Of a stretch of 34,842 nucleotides of DNA, positions 263 through 5,058 are shown piece after piece (position 1 is the first letter of the stretch; every line of letters starts with the position of its first letter). The stretch comes from Nitrososphaerales archaeon (GTDB taxonomy: Archaea > Thermoproteota > Nitrososphaeria > Nitrososphaerales > Gagatemarchaeaceae): contig JASHUU010000080.1 in NCBI GenBank assembly GCA_030039795.1, positions 1-34,842 of the forward strand, read 5' to 3'. Position numbers and translations under genes: made by a program. The notes below the pieces were generated by a model. It saw only the letters and a program-made list of their open reading frames with translations. It was not told the origin of the DNA and ran no database searches.

Positions 263-631
263 ATGTCCCTCGGAGACATAGGCTTGGTCTTCGCCATGGG
301 GATGGTAGGCGTGGTGTTCACCACCCCAGTGGTCCTGGTCCCGAAGCTCCTCGGGCCGAAGAGGCCCAACCCGGTCAAGAACGCCCCCTTCGAGTGCGGC
401 CAGGTGCCGGTGGGCGCGGGCAAGATGCACTACATGATGCAGTACTATGCATACCTCCTGATGTTCATAGTCTTCGACGTGCTGTCGATGTTCCTCTACG
501 CCTGGGCCGCGGCCTACAAGCCGCTGGCGCTCGGCCTGACGGCCGACTGGGCGGTGACGCTCTTCATGGGGATGCTCTTCATCCCGATGGCTTTCGCCCT
601 GGTGCTGGCAGGGAGGCGCGACCTATGGTGA
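263..631 (+). CDS. nuoA: NADH-quinone oxidoreductase-like subunit A (NuoA)
   Basis: 122 aa, three TM segments, PFECGQ motif (NAPFECGQVPVG), followed by nuoB/C/D. Confidence 0.95.
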   Translation: MSLGDIGLVFAMGMVGVVFTTPVVLVPKLLGPKRPNPVKNAPFECGQVPVGAGKMHYMMQYYAYLLMFIVFDVLSMFLYAWAAAYKPLALGLTADWAVTLFMGMLFIPMAFALVLAGRRDLW

Positions 632-2280
632 CGGTGGAGAAGTCGGGGACGTTCCAGGTCCTCGTGGGCAAGGTCAACGACATACTCCAGTACGCCGTCG
701 GGGACCCGATGAGGTACCTGGCCAACTGGGGGAGGCTCTACTCTCTGTGGCCTGTGCATCTTGAGACGGCCTGTTGCGTCCCGCCCGACACCGTGCTGCT
801 CGGGGACAACAAGCCCATCTCCGAATACCGGGTCGGCGACGACGTTGCGGGCGCCGGCGGCCGCGTCACGGTCACGCAGACCTTCGCGAGGGAGTTCGAA
901 GGAAACCTGGTCAGGATCAACGGCGGAGGGATGCTTCCCGTCCTCGCCACTCCGGACCATCCAGTCTTCACGATGGGACGCGAGCTCCGGGGCGGGAAGG
1001 GAGTGTACTCTGGCGTGGGCACCTGGAAGAAAGCAGGGGACCTGGTCAGCGCTCCGCCGGTTAAGAAGAACGGGCGGTTCCTGTACCCGGACGGAGAGCA
1101 TGACTGCCTGCTCATCCCGCGGGTCGAGGGCACGGTCGGGGACAGGGCCATCTCGCTGGAGAGCTACGCCAACGAGCGCGGCCTGGACGTCGTCAGGGGC
1201 AGGGGGAAGAACCCGCCGCTCCGGTTTCCGCTGACAGCCGACACAGCCTGGCTCCTTGGAGTCTACGTGGCAGAAGGGTGGACGACGGAGAACCACGACG
1301 TCTGCTTCTCGTTCGGCCACGGCGAGGAGTCGCTCGTAAGCCGCGTCTCTGAGGTCTCAAAGTCGCTAGGATGCGCGCCGTTCGTGAAGGTCAGACCGAC
1401 GACCACTGTCGTCAGATTCTCCTCCAGTATACTCGCCCGGGCGCTGCGGGAGTGGTGCGGGCACCTCGCCGAGAACAAGAGGATCCCGGACTTCCTCCTC
1501 TTCCACAGGGATCCGGAGCTCCTGAAGGCGTTCGTCGCAGGATATCTGGAGGGCGACGGGAGCGAGACGGCCGACGCGAGGGGCCAGGTCTACGGAAGGG
1601 CCACGACGATGTCCAAGGTCCTCGCGCTCCAGCTGCAGCTGGCATACGCGAGGTTCGGCCAGTTCGCGCGTATCTCGGTCCGACACGCGGCCGGCGTCTC
1701 AGAGATAATGGGCCGTACGGTCAGGACGAAGGACTCGTACGAGCTGTGGGCGCTGAAGTCAGAGAGGAAGTGCGCCGACTTCCATGTCGGGGAGGACTTC
1801 ATCGCGGTCCCGATAACGTCGACATCCGAAGTCGGCTACTCGGGCCAGGTCAGCAACCTCGAGACGAGCGACAACACCTACCTAGTGTCGAACGCCGTCG
1901 TCCACAACTGCTCAGTCGAGGTAGGGGCGGCAGCAGGCTCGAGGTTCGACTTCGAGAGGTTCGGGACCCTCGAGGCATTCGGCTCCCTCAGGCAGTGCGA
2001 CCTGCTGATAGTCATGGGCACCGTGACGCGCAAGCTCGCGCCGAGGCTGAAGCTGATCTACGACCAGATGGCCGAGCCGCGGTGGGTGATAGCGATGGGA
2101 GCGTGCGCGATAACCGGCGGCCTCTACTTCGACTCTTACAACGTCCTCAGGGGGATAGACGACGTGATCCCGGTGGACGTCTTCGTCCCAGGCTGCCCGC
2201 CGAGGGCCGAGGCCCTTCTGCAGGGCATCGTCCTGCTGCAGGAGAAGATACGGAAGCTCCCGACGCTGAGCGGCTCGTGA
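625..2280 (+). CDS. nuoB: NADH-quinone oxidoreductase-like subunit B (NuoB) precursor containing an in-frame intein
   Basis: MVTVEKSGTFQVLVGKVNDILQYAVGDPMRYLANWGRLYSLWPVHLETAC | intein | CSVEVGAAAGSRFDFERFG...CDLLIVMGTVTRKLAPRLKLIYDQM...GACAITGG...VPGCPPRAEALLQGI. Start overlaps nuoA stop (ATGGTGA). Confidence 0.95.
   Translation: MVTVEKSGTFQVLVGKVNDILQYAVGDPMRYLANWGRLYSLWPVHLETACCVPPDTVLLGDNKPISEYRVGDDVAGAGGRVTVTQTFAREFEGNLVRINGGGMLPVLATPDHPVFTMGRELRGGKGVYSGVGTWKKAGDLVSAPPVKKNGRFLYPDGEHDCLLIPRVEGTVGDRAISLESYANERGLDVVRGRGKNPPLRFPLTADTAWLLGVYVAEGWTTENHDVCFSFGHGEESLVSRVSEVSKSLGCAPFVKVRPTTTVVRFSSSILARALREWCGHLAENKRIPDFLLFHRDPELLKAFVAGYLEGDGSETADARGQVYGRATTMSKVLALQLQLAYARFGQFARISVRHAAGVSEIMGRTVRTKDSYELWALKSERKCADFHVGEDFIAVPITSTSEVGYSGQVSNLETSDNTYLVSNAVVHNCSVEVGAAAGSRFDFERFGTLEAFGSLRQCDLLIVMGTVTRKLAPRLKLIYDQMAEPRWVIAMGACAITGGLYFDSYNVLRGIDDVIPVDVFVPGCPPRAEALLQGIVLLQEKIRKLPTLSGS
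775..1908 (+). mobile_element. Intein with LAGLIDADG (DOD) homing endonuclease domain inside NuoB (~378 aa)
   Basis: N-terminal Cys1 block A CVPPDTVLLGDNKPISEYRVGDDV; block B LATPDHPVF (TxxH); endonuclease motifs WLLGVYVAEG and FVAGYLEGDGS; C-terminal block YLVSNAVVHN followed by Cys+1. Flanks join to give the conserved NuoB ...LETACCSVEV... Confidence 0.96.
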
Positions 2281-2290
2281 CACTGCGGCC

Positions 2291-2821
2291 ATGAGTCAGG
2301 CAGCGACGACACCGCCGGCGGCGCCCGCGAAGCCGGCCCCGCCCCAGGCGAAGCCGGAGCCCGTCCGGGCCGCGGACGTCGCGTCCAAGATAAGGGCCAG
2401 GTTCCCCGAGGCGAAGGTCGACTGGATGAAGGAGAGGCGCCTGAAGGTGACGGTCCCACCGGAGAAGATCAAGGACGTCTCGTCATTCGCGAAGGTCGAG
2501 CTCGGGTTCGACCACATCAGCACCGTCAGCGGGGTCGACTGGATAGCGAAGAACGAACTGGAAGTGGTGTACTTCGTCGGCTCGACCGCGCCTGGATGGG
2601 TCGACTTCGTGCTGGCCATCGCCGAGAGGATCCCGCGCGACAACCCGGTGGCCCAGACGCTCGTCGGGGTGTGGACCGGCGCCGACTACAACGAGAGGGA
2701 GACCCATGAGATGCTGGGCATCAACTTCCAGGGGCACCCGAGCCCGGCCCACCTCCTCCTACCCGAGGACTGGAACGACCTGCCGCCGCTCAGGAAGGAC
2801 TACGTGTCCCCCGGGAGATGA
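2291..2821 (+). CDS. nuoC: NADH-quinone oxidoreductase-like subunit C (NuoC)
   Basis: 176 aa; ...NPVAQTLVGVWTGADYNERETHEMLGINFQGHP...LLLPEDWNDLPPLRKDY typical of 30-kDa subunit. Confidence 0.95.
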   Translation: MSQAATTPPAAPAKPAPPQAKPEPVRAADVASKIRARFPEAKVDWMKERRLKVTVPPEKIKDVSSFAKVELGFDHISTVSGVDWIAKNELEVVYFVGSTAPGWVDFVLAIAERIPRDNPVAQTLVGVWTGADYNERETHEMLGINFQGHPSPAHLLLPEDWNDLPPLRKDYVSPGR

Positions 2822-2867
2822 GACCACGGCCCTAGAGTCTGAGTACACCCCGGACGCGGACAGGATA

Positions 2868-3944
2868 ATGGCGGTCTCGCTCGGGCCGCAGCACCCGGGC
2901 GCGGGCCATTTCAGGATCAAGCTCTGGCTCGACGGCGACTTCCTCGTGCGCTCCGAGCCCGACGCCGGCTACGTCCACAGGGGGGAGGAGAAGATGGGCG
3001 AGTACAGGAACTACATCCAGAACGTGCCGCACCTCGAGCGGCCGGTCATACTCGACTCCTCGAATATCCTGCTCGCGTACTCGCTGGGCGTCGACGAGCT
3101 GATGGGCGTGACCGCCCCGCCGAGGGCTCAGTACCTGCGGGTGATAATGAGCGAGGCCAACAGGATCATCTCGCACATGTACTTCCTCGGCATAATGGGG
3201 ATCTTCGTGGGCCACTCCACGATGATCGAGTGGGCCATGGGGGACAGGGACTTCTGGATCGACTTCGCGGAGAGGATCGGGGGCGCCAGGGTGACCTTCG
3301 CATACGTCATCCCGGGCGGCGTGAGGAACGACATCCCGGAGTTCGCGATAGAGAAGGGCCTGAAGACGTGCGACTGGTTCGAGAAGAGGATGGACGAGTA
3401 CGAGAAGATATTCCTGAAGAACCCGGTCTTCGTGCAGCGCTCGCACGCGGTCGGAGTGCTGTCGAGCAAGGACGCCATCGACCTGGGTAGCACGGGGACC
3501 GTGCTGAGGGCCTCGGGCGTGAAGCACGACCTGAGGAGGGACGAGCCTTACTGCGCGTACCCGGAGCTGGAGTTCGACGTCCCGGTGCTCAACGACGGCG
3601 ACTCGTGGGCGAGGTCGTACATCGCCCTGCTGGAGATGCGCGAGTCGGTCAAGATAATCAGGCAGTGCCTCAAGAAGCTCCCGCCGGGCTCCGTCAGGCT
3701 CAAGCTCGGCCCCCAGCCCCGCGTCCCGCCTGGAGAGGTCTACTCCAGGACCGAGGCGGCAAGGGGCGAGATGAGCTATCACATCGTGAGCGACGGCTCG
3801 CCGAGGCCGTACAGGCTGAAAATCGGGACGCCGAGCTTCAAGAACCTGAGGGCCCTGCCCCACCTGCTCAGGAACGTGCACGTGGCTGACATACCGGTCA
3901 TCTATTGGAGTTTAAATTATTGGCCGGTCGAAGCGGACCGATAG
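2868..3944 (+). CDS. nuoD: NADH-quinone oxidoreductase-like subunit D (NuoD); start codon uncertain
   Basis: GPQHPGAGHFRIKLWLDGD...VHRGEEKMGEYRNYIQNVPHLER... ending SLNYWPVEADR; homologous-looking residues (ADRI) precede the ATG at 2868 in frame. Confidence 0.93.
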   Translation: MAVSLGPQHPGAGHFRIKLWLDGDFLVRSEPDAGYVHRGEEKMGEYRNYIQNVPHLERPVILDSSNILLAYSLGVDELMGVTAPPRAQYLRVIMSEANRIISHMYFLGIMGIFVGHSTMIEWAMGDRDFWIDFAERIGGARVTFAYVIPGGVRNDIPEFAIEKGLKTCDWFEKRMDEYEKIFLKNPVFVQRSHAVGVLSSKDAIDLGSTGTVLRASGVKHDLRRDEPYCAYPELEFDVPVLNDGDSWARSYIALLEMRESVKIIRQCLKKLPPGSVRLKLGPQPRVPPGEVYSRTEAARGEMSYHIVSDGSPRPYRLKIGTPSFKNLRALPHLLRNVHVADIPVIYWSLNYWPVEADR

Positions 3945-3945
3945 T

Positions 3946-5058
3946 TCAGCCACCAGCAAGAATAGCCCCCCGCCTGGCATAGTAGATTCTCTCCGCTTCC
4001 TTCACGTATGCGTTCCGCTCAGCTCTGATTCCTTCCAGTAACGAGTCCCAAGCAGCTTCGAAATCTCCTGCGCGTTCTGCCTCACTTGCTAGATATTGTG
4101 CCAACACGATCTCCTTCTTCGCGACCTTCTCCGGATGCCTTATCGGAAGCATCTCTAGCGTTAGTTTGACATCACTTCGCCTCCAGACTCTTAGCTGCCA
4201 GACGTCCCCGCCAGGGGAGAGTTCAGTGGCGCCATGTCTGACCAGCCTTGAGTAGATGCCCAGCTCCTCTAAGCCTGAGAACACCCTGAGCAAGAGCTCT
4301 TTGTCCGAGTTCGTAATCGAAAGTTCATACCATCCAGTAGAGTTTCTGGTGATAGAACCCTCGGCGTCGAACAACCCGGCTACGTAGTGGGCGAAACTCG
4401 CAGGAGCAAGGTCTGAGCTCAAAACGTTGTGGTCGAGCAGGAAGTCGAAACTTCTGTCCAAGTCAAAGGTGAAAGCCCACTCAAATCCTGTCAGTCTGCT
4501 CCTCTTCGGACTAGTGTAGAGAGGTCCGTAGCCACCGAAGCATGACTTCAGGAGATCACGCATCGCAGGATGAGTCGAAGCTGTCTTGACACGGATTAGG
4601 CGCCCGTGGCTAGCGACGTATAGGTCGCCTTGTGTGAGACCCCTGAGGTACGCTTTGCCATCGGAACCTCCCGCGAATGACACGCGACTGTGCTTAGTCG
4701 CTGACTCGATTTGAGCTGAGACCTTGTCCCTGATTTCAGTCCCCTCCTTCCTCAGGTGATTCCAGACGGTTACGGAATCCACCAGACGACCTGCAATCTG
4801 CCTCAGCGACTCGCCGGCTTGGTACCTCCGAACCCACTCGGAGGTCATCTCCTCGGTCACCTTCCGAATGTGTTCTGCTCTGTCTCTTCGGCCGATGCCG
4901 TTCTTCCTGAGGTGATATAGGATGGTCGACTCTGCCGTCTTGTTACTTGGATAGTTCAGTCCGTATGCCTTGGCAATCTTCGAGGCCGAGAGTTTCTCAA
5001 CCAGATATAGCCTCTCGAGGTCTTCCTTCTTCGGAGGCCAAGTGAGACCTTCAGGCAA
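3946..5058 (-). CDS. Free-standing LAGLIDADG-family homing endonuclease-like protein with N-terminal helix-turn-helix repeats
   Basis: LRGLTQGDLYV and HYVAGLFDAEGSITRN motifs in a 370-aa ORF; HTH-like repeats LSASKIAKAYGLNYP and ESLRQIAGRLVDSVTVWNHLRKEG; lower GC than neighbours; TTG start. Confidence 0.85.
   Translation of the reverse strand: MPEGLTWPPKKEDLERLYLVEKLSASKIAKAYGLNYPSNKTAESTILYHLRKNGIGRRDRAEHIRKVTEEMTSEWVRRYQAGESLRQIAGRLVDSVTVWNHLRKEGTEIRDKVSAQIESATKHSRVSFAGGSDGKAYLRGLTQGDLYVASHGRLIRVKTASTHPAMRDLLKSCFGGYGPLYTSPKRSRLTGFEWAFTFDLDRSFDFLLDHNVLSSDLAPASFAHYVAGLFDAEGSITRNSTGWYELSITNSDKELLLRVFSGLEELGIYSRLVRHGATELSPGGDVWQLRVWRRSDVKLTLEMLPIRHPEKVAKKEIVLAQYLASEAERAGDFEAAWDSLLEGIRAERNAYVKEAERIYYARRGAILAGG

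Follow-up and report, generated by a model that had tools for sequence, protein, structure and literature searches.

The familiar hosts of inteins are proteins of replication, repair and nucleotide metabolism. Hosts involved in Fe-S chemistry are represented by the mycobacterial SufB and Pab MoaA inteins, which likewise have cysteines near the splice junction and, in MoaA, known redox effects; this comparison draws on general knowledge and the literature rather than on sequence, and neither host belongs to complex I. Disulfides between C-3 and C1 (Pab MoaA) or between C1 and C+1 (Pab PolII) block splicing (PMC3922620), and zinc and copper inhibit intein splicing (PMC7765530). A 2023 survey table lists one intein across 18 Thaumarchaeota genomes (PMC10643990).

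The element described here, NuoB-a, lies in the NuoB subunit of respiratory complex I of an uncultured archaeon of the Gagatemarchaeaceae, and is best explained as a homing intein of canonical class-1 type that occupies a new host site, a reading to which we assign a probability of about 0.9 and for which we infer the splicing chemistry, the order of splicing relative to cluster insertion, and homing. The initial annotation was aware of no described NuoB intein, and a search of 5.39 million open-access texts agrees with it: no paper was found there that combines 'intein' with 'NuoB' or that describes a complex I intein, and the four open-access papers containing 'intein' and 'NADH-quinone oxidoreductase' were unrelated as judged by their titles and abstracts. 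The papers covered on the Gagatemarchaeaceae and on family UBA183, which is reported to be abundant in acid mine drainage and to which the window's family probably corresponds, do not mention inteins.

An intein between the tandem N2 cysteines of NuoB

The window, that is, the whole 34,842-nucleotide stretch that was analysed, is an entire contig (C16) of a metagenome-assembled genome (MAG) of 1.29 Mb that is 79% complete and consists of 97 contigs. It contains a nuoB precursor gene whose ATG overlaps the end of nuoA (Table 1), and whose single open frame reads WPVHLETAC/CVPPDTVLLG at the upstream junction and SNAVVHN/CSVEVGAAAGS at the downstream junction, the insert spanning exactly 378 codons. 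Removal of the insert restores the conserved host protein: the joined NuoB of 173 aa aligns with solved NuoB/PSST chains (e.g. 8b9z_B) over the ACC, GxCA and PGCPP motifs and also matches 2fug_6, so that NuoB family models and solved chains agree with the earlier proposal that joining the exteins re-forms the tandem cysteine pair. Cysteines 50, 51, 116 and 146 of the joined protein are taken to be the N2 ligands by homology to established complex I structures. A second intein site, NuoB-b, immediately before Cys116 (2103/2104, MGA/CAITGG), is empty in the window, and an intein at Cys146 was seen in none of the relatives examined.

Table 1. Features of the nuoABCD region, in window coordinates
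Feature	Position	Strand	Details	Support
nuoA	263..631	+		PF00507
nuoB precursor gene	625..2280	+	551 aa, one intein	NCBIfam NF005012 and TIGR01957 above cut-offs, matching the C-extein
N-extein	625..774	+	50 residues, last is Cys50 (first tandem N2 cysteine)	tblastn, joined NuoB 1-52
Intein NuoB-a	775..1908	+	378 aa; Hint splicing domain interrupted by LAGLIDADG endonuclease domain	
Intein Cys1	775..777	+	N-S acyl shift nucleophile (predicted); block A CVPPDTVLLG	invariant 14/14
Block B	949..963	+	TPDHP (Thr59, His62)	T59, P60, H62, P63 invariant 14/14
LAGLIDADG motif 1	1252..1278	+	LLGVYVAEG; acid E167 present	
LAGLIDADG motif 2	1540..1563	+	GYLEGDGS; acid D261 present	
Blocks F/G	1843..1908	+	GQVSNLETSDNTYLVSNAVVHN; His377 penultimate, Asn378 terminal (HN at 1903-1908)	both invariant 14/14
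C-extein	1909..2280	+	123 residues, first is +1 Cys51 (second tandem N2 cysteine)	PF01058, E 1.4e-25
Cys116	2104..2106	+	third N2 cysteine	
Cys146	2194..2196	+	fourth N2 cysteine (VPGCPP)	
nuoC	2291..2821	+		PF00329
nuoD	2706..3944	+	open frame; actual start further downstream, near 2869	PF00346, NF004739
Free-standing HTH + LAGLIDADG_3 protein	3946..5058	-	370 aa; convergent with nuoD	

NuoB-a has the class-1 residue set of N-terminal Cys, TxxH, HN and +1 Cys, and all of the motifs first listed for it, including two of LAGLIDADG type, are found in frame 625-2280. Cys1, Thr59, His62, His377 and Asn378 are invariant in an alignment of 378 columns that comprises 14 complete inteins from the same site, 55-66% identical to that of the window. 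The profile check proposed by the initial annotation had a divided outcome, with LAGLIDADG_3 (PF14528) matching at E 1.2e-8 whilst Pfam Intein_splicing (PF14890) gave no match on the contig at E<=1e-3, nor one with P0001; this miss is attributed to model sensitivity, the profile being a convenience test and not a biochemical definition. The endonuclease part matches PI-PkoII (phmmer, E 2.5e-8). An AlphaFold2 model of NuoB-a (pLDDT 86.1, pTM 0.86) has the horseshoe-shaped Hint fold, and its top Foldseek matches are the TliVMA (E 4.8e-18), PI-SceI, PhoVMA and PI-PkoII inteins. The window copy retains the catalytic acids of both LAGLIDADG helices, E167 and D261.

The nuo genes of this genome are divided into nuoABCD (window 625-3944) and a second cluster on contig C6 that includes nuoH and nuoI; nuoH is likewise absent after nuoD in the closed genome G010. 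The free-standing LAGLIDADG gene downstream of nuoD has a GC content of 0.544 against about 0.64 around it. Ten genomes (G077, G100, G124, G106, G166, G115, G181, G094, G112 and G139) have a relative of it (29-55% identity) immediately after nuoD, likewise oriented; some of these genomes have NuoB inteins and some do not, and other genomes lack the gene. It is classed, from its sequence and occurrence, as a putative homing-type gene with a patchy distribution at the same operon. A splitting of the operon by this gene was rejected, since the closed G010 has the same nuoABCD/downstream order without it.

Distribution, decay and probable transfer of NuoB-a

In a sample of 46 genomes of the window's family searched by tblastn, the intein is complete at the same codon in 15 genomes and truncated where the contig stops in another two, G094 and G172, which answers the earlier call for a search of archaeal NuoB for insertions at this site. 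A further 19 NuoB loci of the family lack both NuoB inteins and keep the CC pair intact. This recurrence, the empty sites and the invariance of the splicing residues rule out a chance resemblance. Such empty alleles and patchy presence are the pattern expected of LAGLIDADG homing. Among about 400 Thermoproteota genomes NuoB-a was not found outside this family.

The recurrence of the junction across genomes also refutes an assembly or binning artefact in the form of a chimeric contig, to which we give next to no weight. The fragmentation of the MAG into 97 contigs and the several NuoB versions of G151 (8% contamination) would fit such a chimera, but the junction is identical in 15 genomes, one of them in only 8 contigs (G044), a related insertion at site b is present in the one-contig genome G010, and the composition of the intein (GC 0.651, GC3 0.862) matches that of the exteins (0.638, 0.879). 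Several other candidates were discarded. A split intein was rejected because the NuoB-intein pieces in G077:C22, G172:C79, G154:C82 and G094 all reach contig ends, and are hence cut contigs. Long tblastn spans in Armatimonadetes (L043, L057) proved to be two tandem normal NuoB genes, and verrucomicrobial matches extending into the intein were ordinary NuoB N-termini. In G151:C14 (L158 5731-6462, minus strand), an internal 244-aa NuoB-like frame has only the last intein residues and the C-extein, and could be an intein remnant, a rearrangement or a bin mixture in this contaminated MAG.

The endonuclease and splicing parts of the site-a inteins differ in their conservation. The first endonuclease acid is replaced in G091 (K), G025 and G151 (both Q) and G166 (V), whilst G081 has D at this position and is the only genome in which the second acid is lost. 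Endonuclease acids are thus altered in 5 of 15 inteins and splicing residues in 0 of 15, the signature of an element that needs splicing but not cutting, and this is what the homing cycle would predict. In informative pairs, dN/dS is 0-0.09 for the exteins and 0.09-0.24 for the intein, with many or most dS values saturated; the extein values show purifying selection. Motifs, conservation over 14 rows, AlphaFold and Foldseek results, empty alleles and extein selection together uphold the initial description of the element as a homing-type intein of full length, situated between the two tandem N2 cysteines.

On a host tree of NuoB, NuoC and NuoD (ArgH was left out as a species marker, being too divergent and missing from key genomes), at least 7 state changes are required for site a and at least 5 for site b. 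In the intein tree G121 groups with G077, and the pairing of G121 with G091 seen in the hosts is rejected (p 5e-7); the converse test, on the host tree, falls short of significance (p 0.066), so that transfer of NuoB-a between hosts is likely, not proven. A viral source was considered and dropped, IMG/VR being without a relative; remote matches are confined to about 28% identity in an Aeromonas phage thymidylate synthase and 26-29% in two plasmids.

Intein sites in complex I and other Fe-S proteins

The second NuoB site, NuoB-b, lies between A115 and C116 (MGA/CAITGG), directly before the third N2 cysteine. Its intein is 406-409 aa long, or 203 aa in the mini-intein of G081, which has lost the endonuclease. 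Nine members of the family carry it, complete in G010, G066, G172, G151, G115, G181, G081 and G166 and partial in G094; both NuoB inteins occur within one gene in G081 and G166. NuoB-a and NuoB-b share the host protein, the cluster and a +1 residue that is an N2 ligand, and differ in insertion site and in belonging to separate intein alignments; furthermore, NuoB-b is found outside the family (G300 of f45 and G250 of f25, both in other Thermoproteota families), whereas NuoB-a is not in the sampled genomes of the phylum.

NuoI is also occupied. In the window's genome, a 369-aa intein at YGR/CVFCGLC (G000:C6, L190 5093-6712, minus strand) precedes the first cysteine of motif II, and its predicted structure shows the same intein fold. 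The family has two NuoI sites, NuoI-a (R107/C108) and NuoI-b (L113/C114), and C108 and C114 are presumably N6b ligands, by homology to Thermus Nqo9. Among 36 family NuoI genes, 14 have an intein at site a only, 8 at site b only, 6 at both and 8 at neither. NuoI-a mini-inteins of 172-182 aa without the endonuclease (G066, G151, G112 and G181; L227, L229, L277 and L278) occur only alongside a NuoI-b intein six residues downstream, a pattern that fits the idea of adjoining inteins disturbing each other's homing (PMC10643990). The NuoI inteins and NuoB-a share the enzyme and a cluster cysteine as +1 residue, and differ in subunit, NuoI-a also lying on another contig.

Complex I of this family therefore has four intein sites, each immediately 5' of a cluster cysteine codon, and the window's genome carries NuoB-a and NuoI-a. 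The initial annotation was right about NuoB site a and incomplete in its coverage, having seen one of the four complex I sites and overlooked the intein that this genome carries in NuoI. Among about 400 Thermoproteota genomes, NuoI-a is found outside the family in G330 and NuoI-b in G285, G475, G499 and G530, so that, of the four sites, all but NuoB-a hold inteins in other Thermoproteota families as well. Since the searches began at complex I, the four-site pattern is not an unbiased count of enrichment at Fe-S cysteines.

In the closed, one-contig genome G010, the sole copies of NuoB and NuoI carry NuoB-b and NuoI-b. Unless it goes unused, complex I would there require protein splicing for its assembly, and a working complex I in such organisms would depend on splicing. 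It is conceivable that the insertion is non-functional, with nuoB broken and complex I either lost or served by another copy; the host is uncultured and some relatives have additional NuoB-like genes. This is nevertheless very improbable given the strong purifying selection on the exteins (dN/dS 0.013-0.09), the invariant splice residues, the restriction of G010 to intein-bearing NuoB and NuoI, and the retention of the remaining nuo cluster, including nuoH and nuoI, on contig C6.

Inteins are also present in other proteins of these genomes. In the window's genome, aconitase has one at GLGCTT/CIGNSG, between two [4Fe-4S] cysteines (G000:C43, L181 1200-5519, minus strand), and the Fe-S assembly protein SufB has another (G000:C78, L274); G142 has two in SufB (SufB loci L274 and L174). 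Further inteins of the window's genome lie in TopoVI-A/Spo11-like, RtcB, aIF2-gamma (P-loop), RadA and PolB proteins (contigs C4, C96, C59, C85 and C20), hosts that were named by eye from sequence. A PorB-like protein (2-oxoacid:ferredoxin oxidoreductase beta) has a homologous intein directly before a functional cysteine (CPG/CGDFG) in G517 and G071, and an IscU/NifU-like protein of G324 has another before its scaffold cysteine (GNPV/CGDLM; PorB-like and IscU-like loci L272, L319 and L320). As the inteins in Fe-S hosts were reached via homology and Pfam searches, they represent a pattern and not a measured enrichment.

NuoB-a itself has homologues among the inteins of SufB (G142), PolB, TopA (G287) and the PorB-like protein (G517), at 36-42% identity or profile E-values of 7e-79 to 7e-33, and its nearest relative outside the family in the sampled genomes of the phylum is the TopA intein of G287. 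In all of them the +1 Cys belongs to a functional site that is conserved; the hosts differ.

Proposed splicing and cluster assembly, and comparison with known inteins

In the proposed mechanism, the entire NuoB precursor would be translated first. Cys1 would then attack the Cys50-Cys1 bond (N-S shift), the N-extein would pass to Cys51, the +1 residue and an N2 ligand, Asn378 would cyclise with the assistance of His377, and an S-N shift would link Cys50 to Cys51. NuoB could bind the N2 [4Fe-4S] cluster only after splicing, because in the precursor the ligands are 378 residues apart and Cys51 is the splicing nucleophile. With Cys51 in both roles, splicing and cluster binding would compete for one thiol, and geometry and intein chemistry suggest that splicing comes before N2 assembly. 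In nuoB alleles whose Cys-Cys site is intact, the LAGLIDADG domain would cleave the DNA and the intein would be copied in. As mutation of the +1 Cys would destroy complex I, the intein would be hard to lose except via exact deletion. The same logic of an irreplaceable cysteine is the best explanation for the sites at NuoB C116, NuoI C108 and C114, and those in aconitase, SufB, PorB and the IscU-like protein.

Splicing could in addition be conditional on redox state, oxygen, metal or pH and act as a maturation checkpoint for complex I, with C-1, C1 and C+1 forming a disulfide or binding iron or zinc and thereby stalling splicing under oxidative stress. C50, C1 and C51 all converge at the splice junction, the blocking disulfides and metal inhibition cited at the outset (PMC3922620, PMC7765530) are precedents, endonuclease-free mini-inteins persist at NuoB-b (G081) and NuoI-a (G066, G151, G112, G181), and several inteins cluster in one enzyme. 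Persistence of mini-inteins is, however, also expected where exact deletion is rare, and the patchy occurrence among close relatives, many with no intein, indicates that NuoB-a is dispensable and speaks against a needed switch. Since blocking disulfides are known and all three junction positions are cysteines, a redox-gated version is conceivable, although we regard such regulation as unlikely. Slightly less likely still is a joint checkpoint, in which the complex I inteins would be redox- or metal-sensitive and the N6b-N2 relay would be built only with cytosolic thiols in a reduced, free state; if true, Fe-S ligand cysteines would double as nucleophiles and a lineage would gate respiration by splicing.

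For the canonical homing intein, the significance lies in its location. The inteins of this family are inserted in the core of complex I, at four separate cysteines holding the last clusters before quinone, and the majority of the family's members, as well as other Thermoproteota, carry complex I inteins. The choice of intein sites at an irreplaceable +1 Cys and the competition of cluster insertion and splicing for one thiol both become testable. Within one lineage, moreover, single genes are found with a full, an endonuclease-dead, a mini or no intein, a natural series of the homing cycle.

On the basis of the open-access literature, we rate NuoB-a as an element of known kind whose host complex and sites are new. 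The RtcB intein of the window's genome (G000:C96) likewise stands directly before what is presumably an essential metal-binding Cys, there a Mn/Zn and not an Fe-S ligand. With PI-PkoII (Tko Pol), TliVMA, PhoVMA and yeast PI-SceI, NuoB-a shares the Hint and two-motif LAGLIDADG architecture, the C1/TxxH/HN and +1 Cys chemistry and the predicted fold, with an identity of only 15-17% across the fold alignment to the solved inteins that match best; it differs from these archaeal and yeast inteins in that its host is a respiratory Fe-S subunit.
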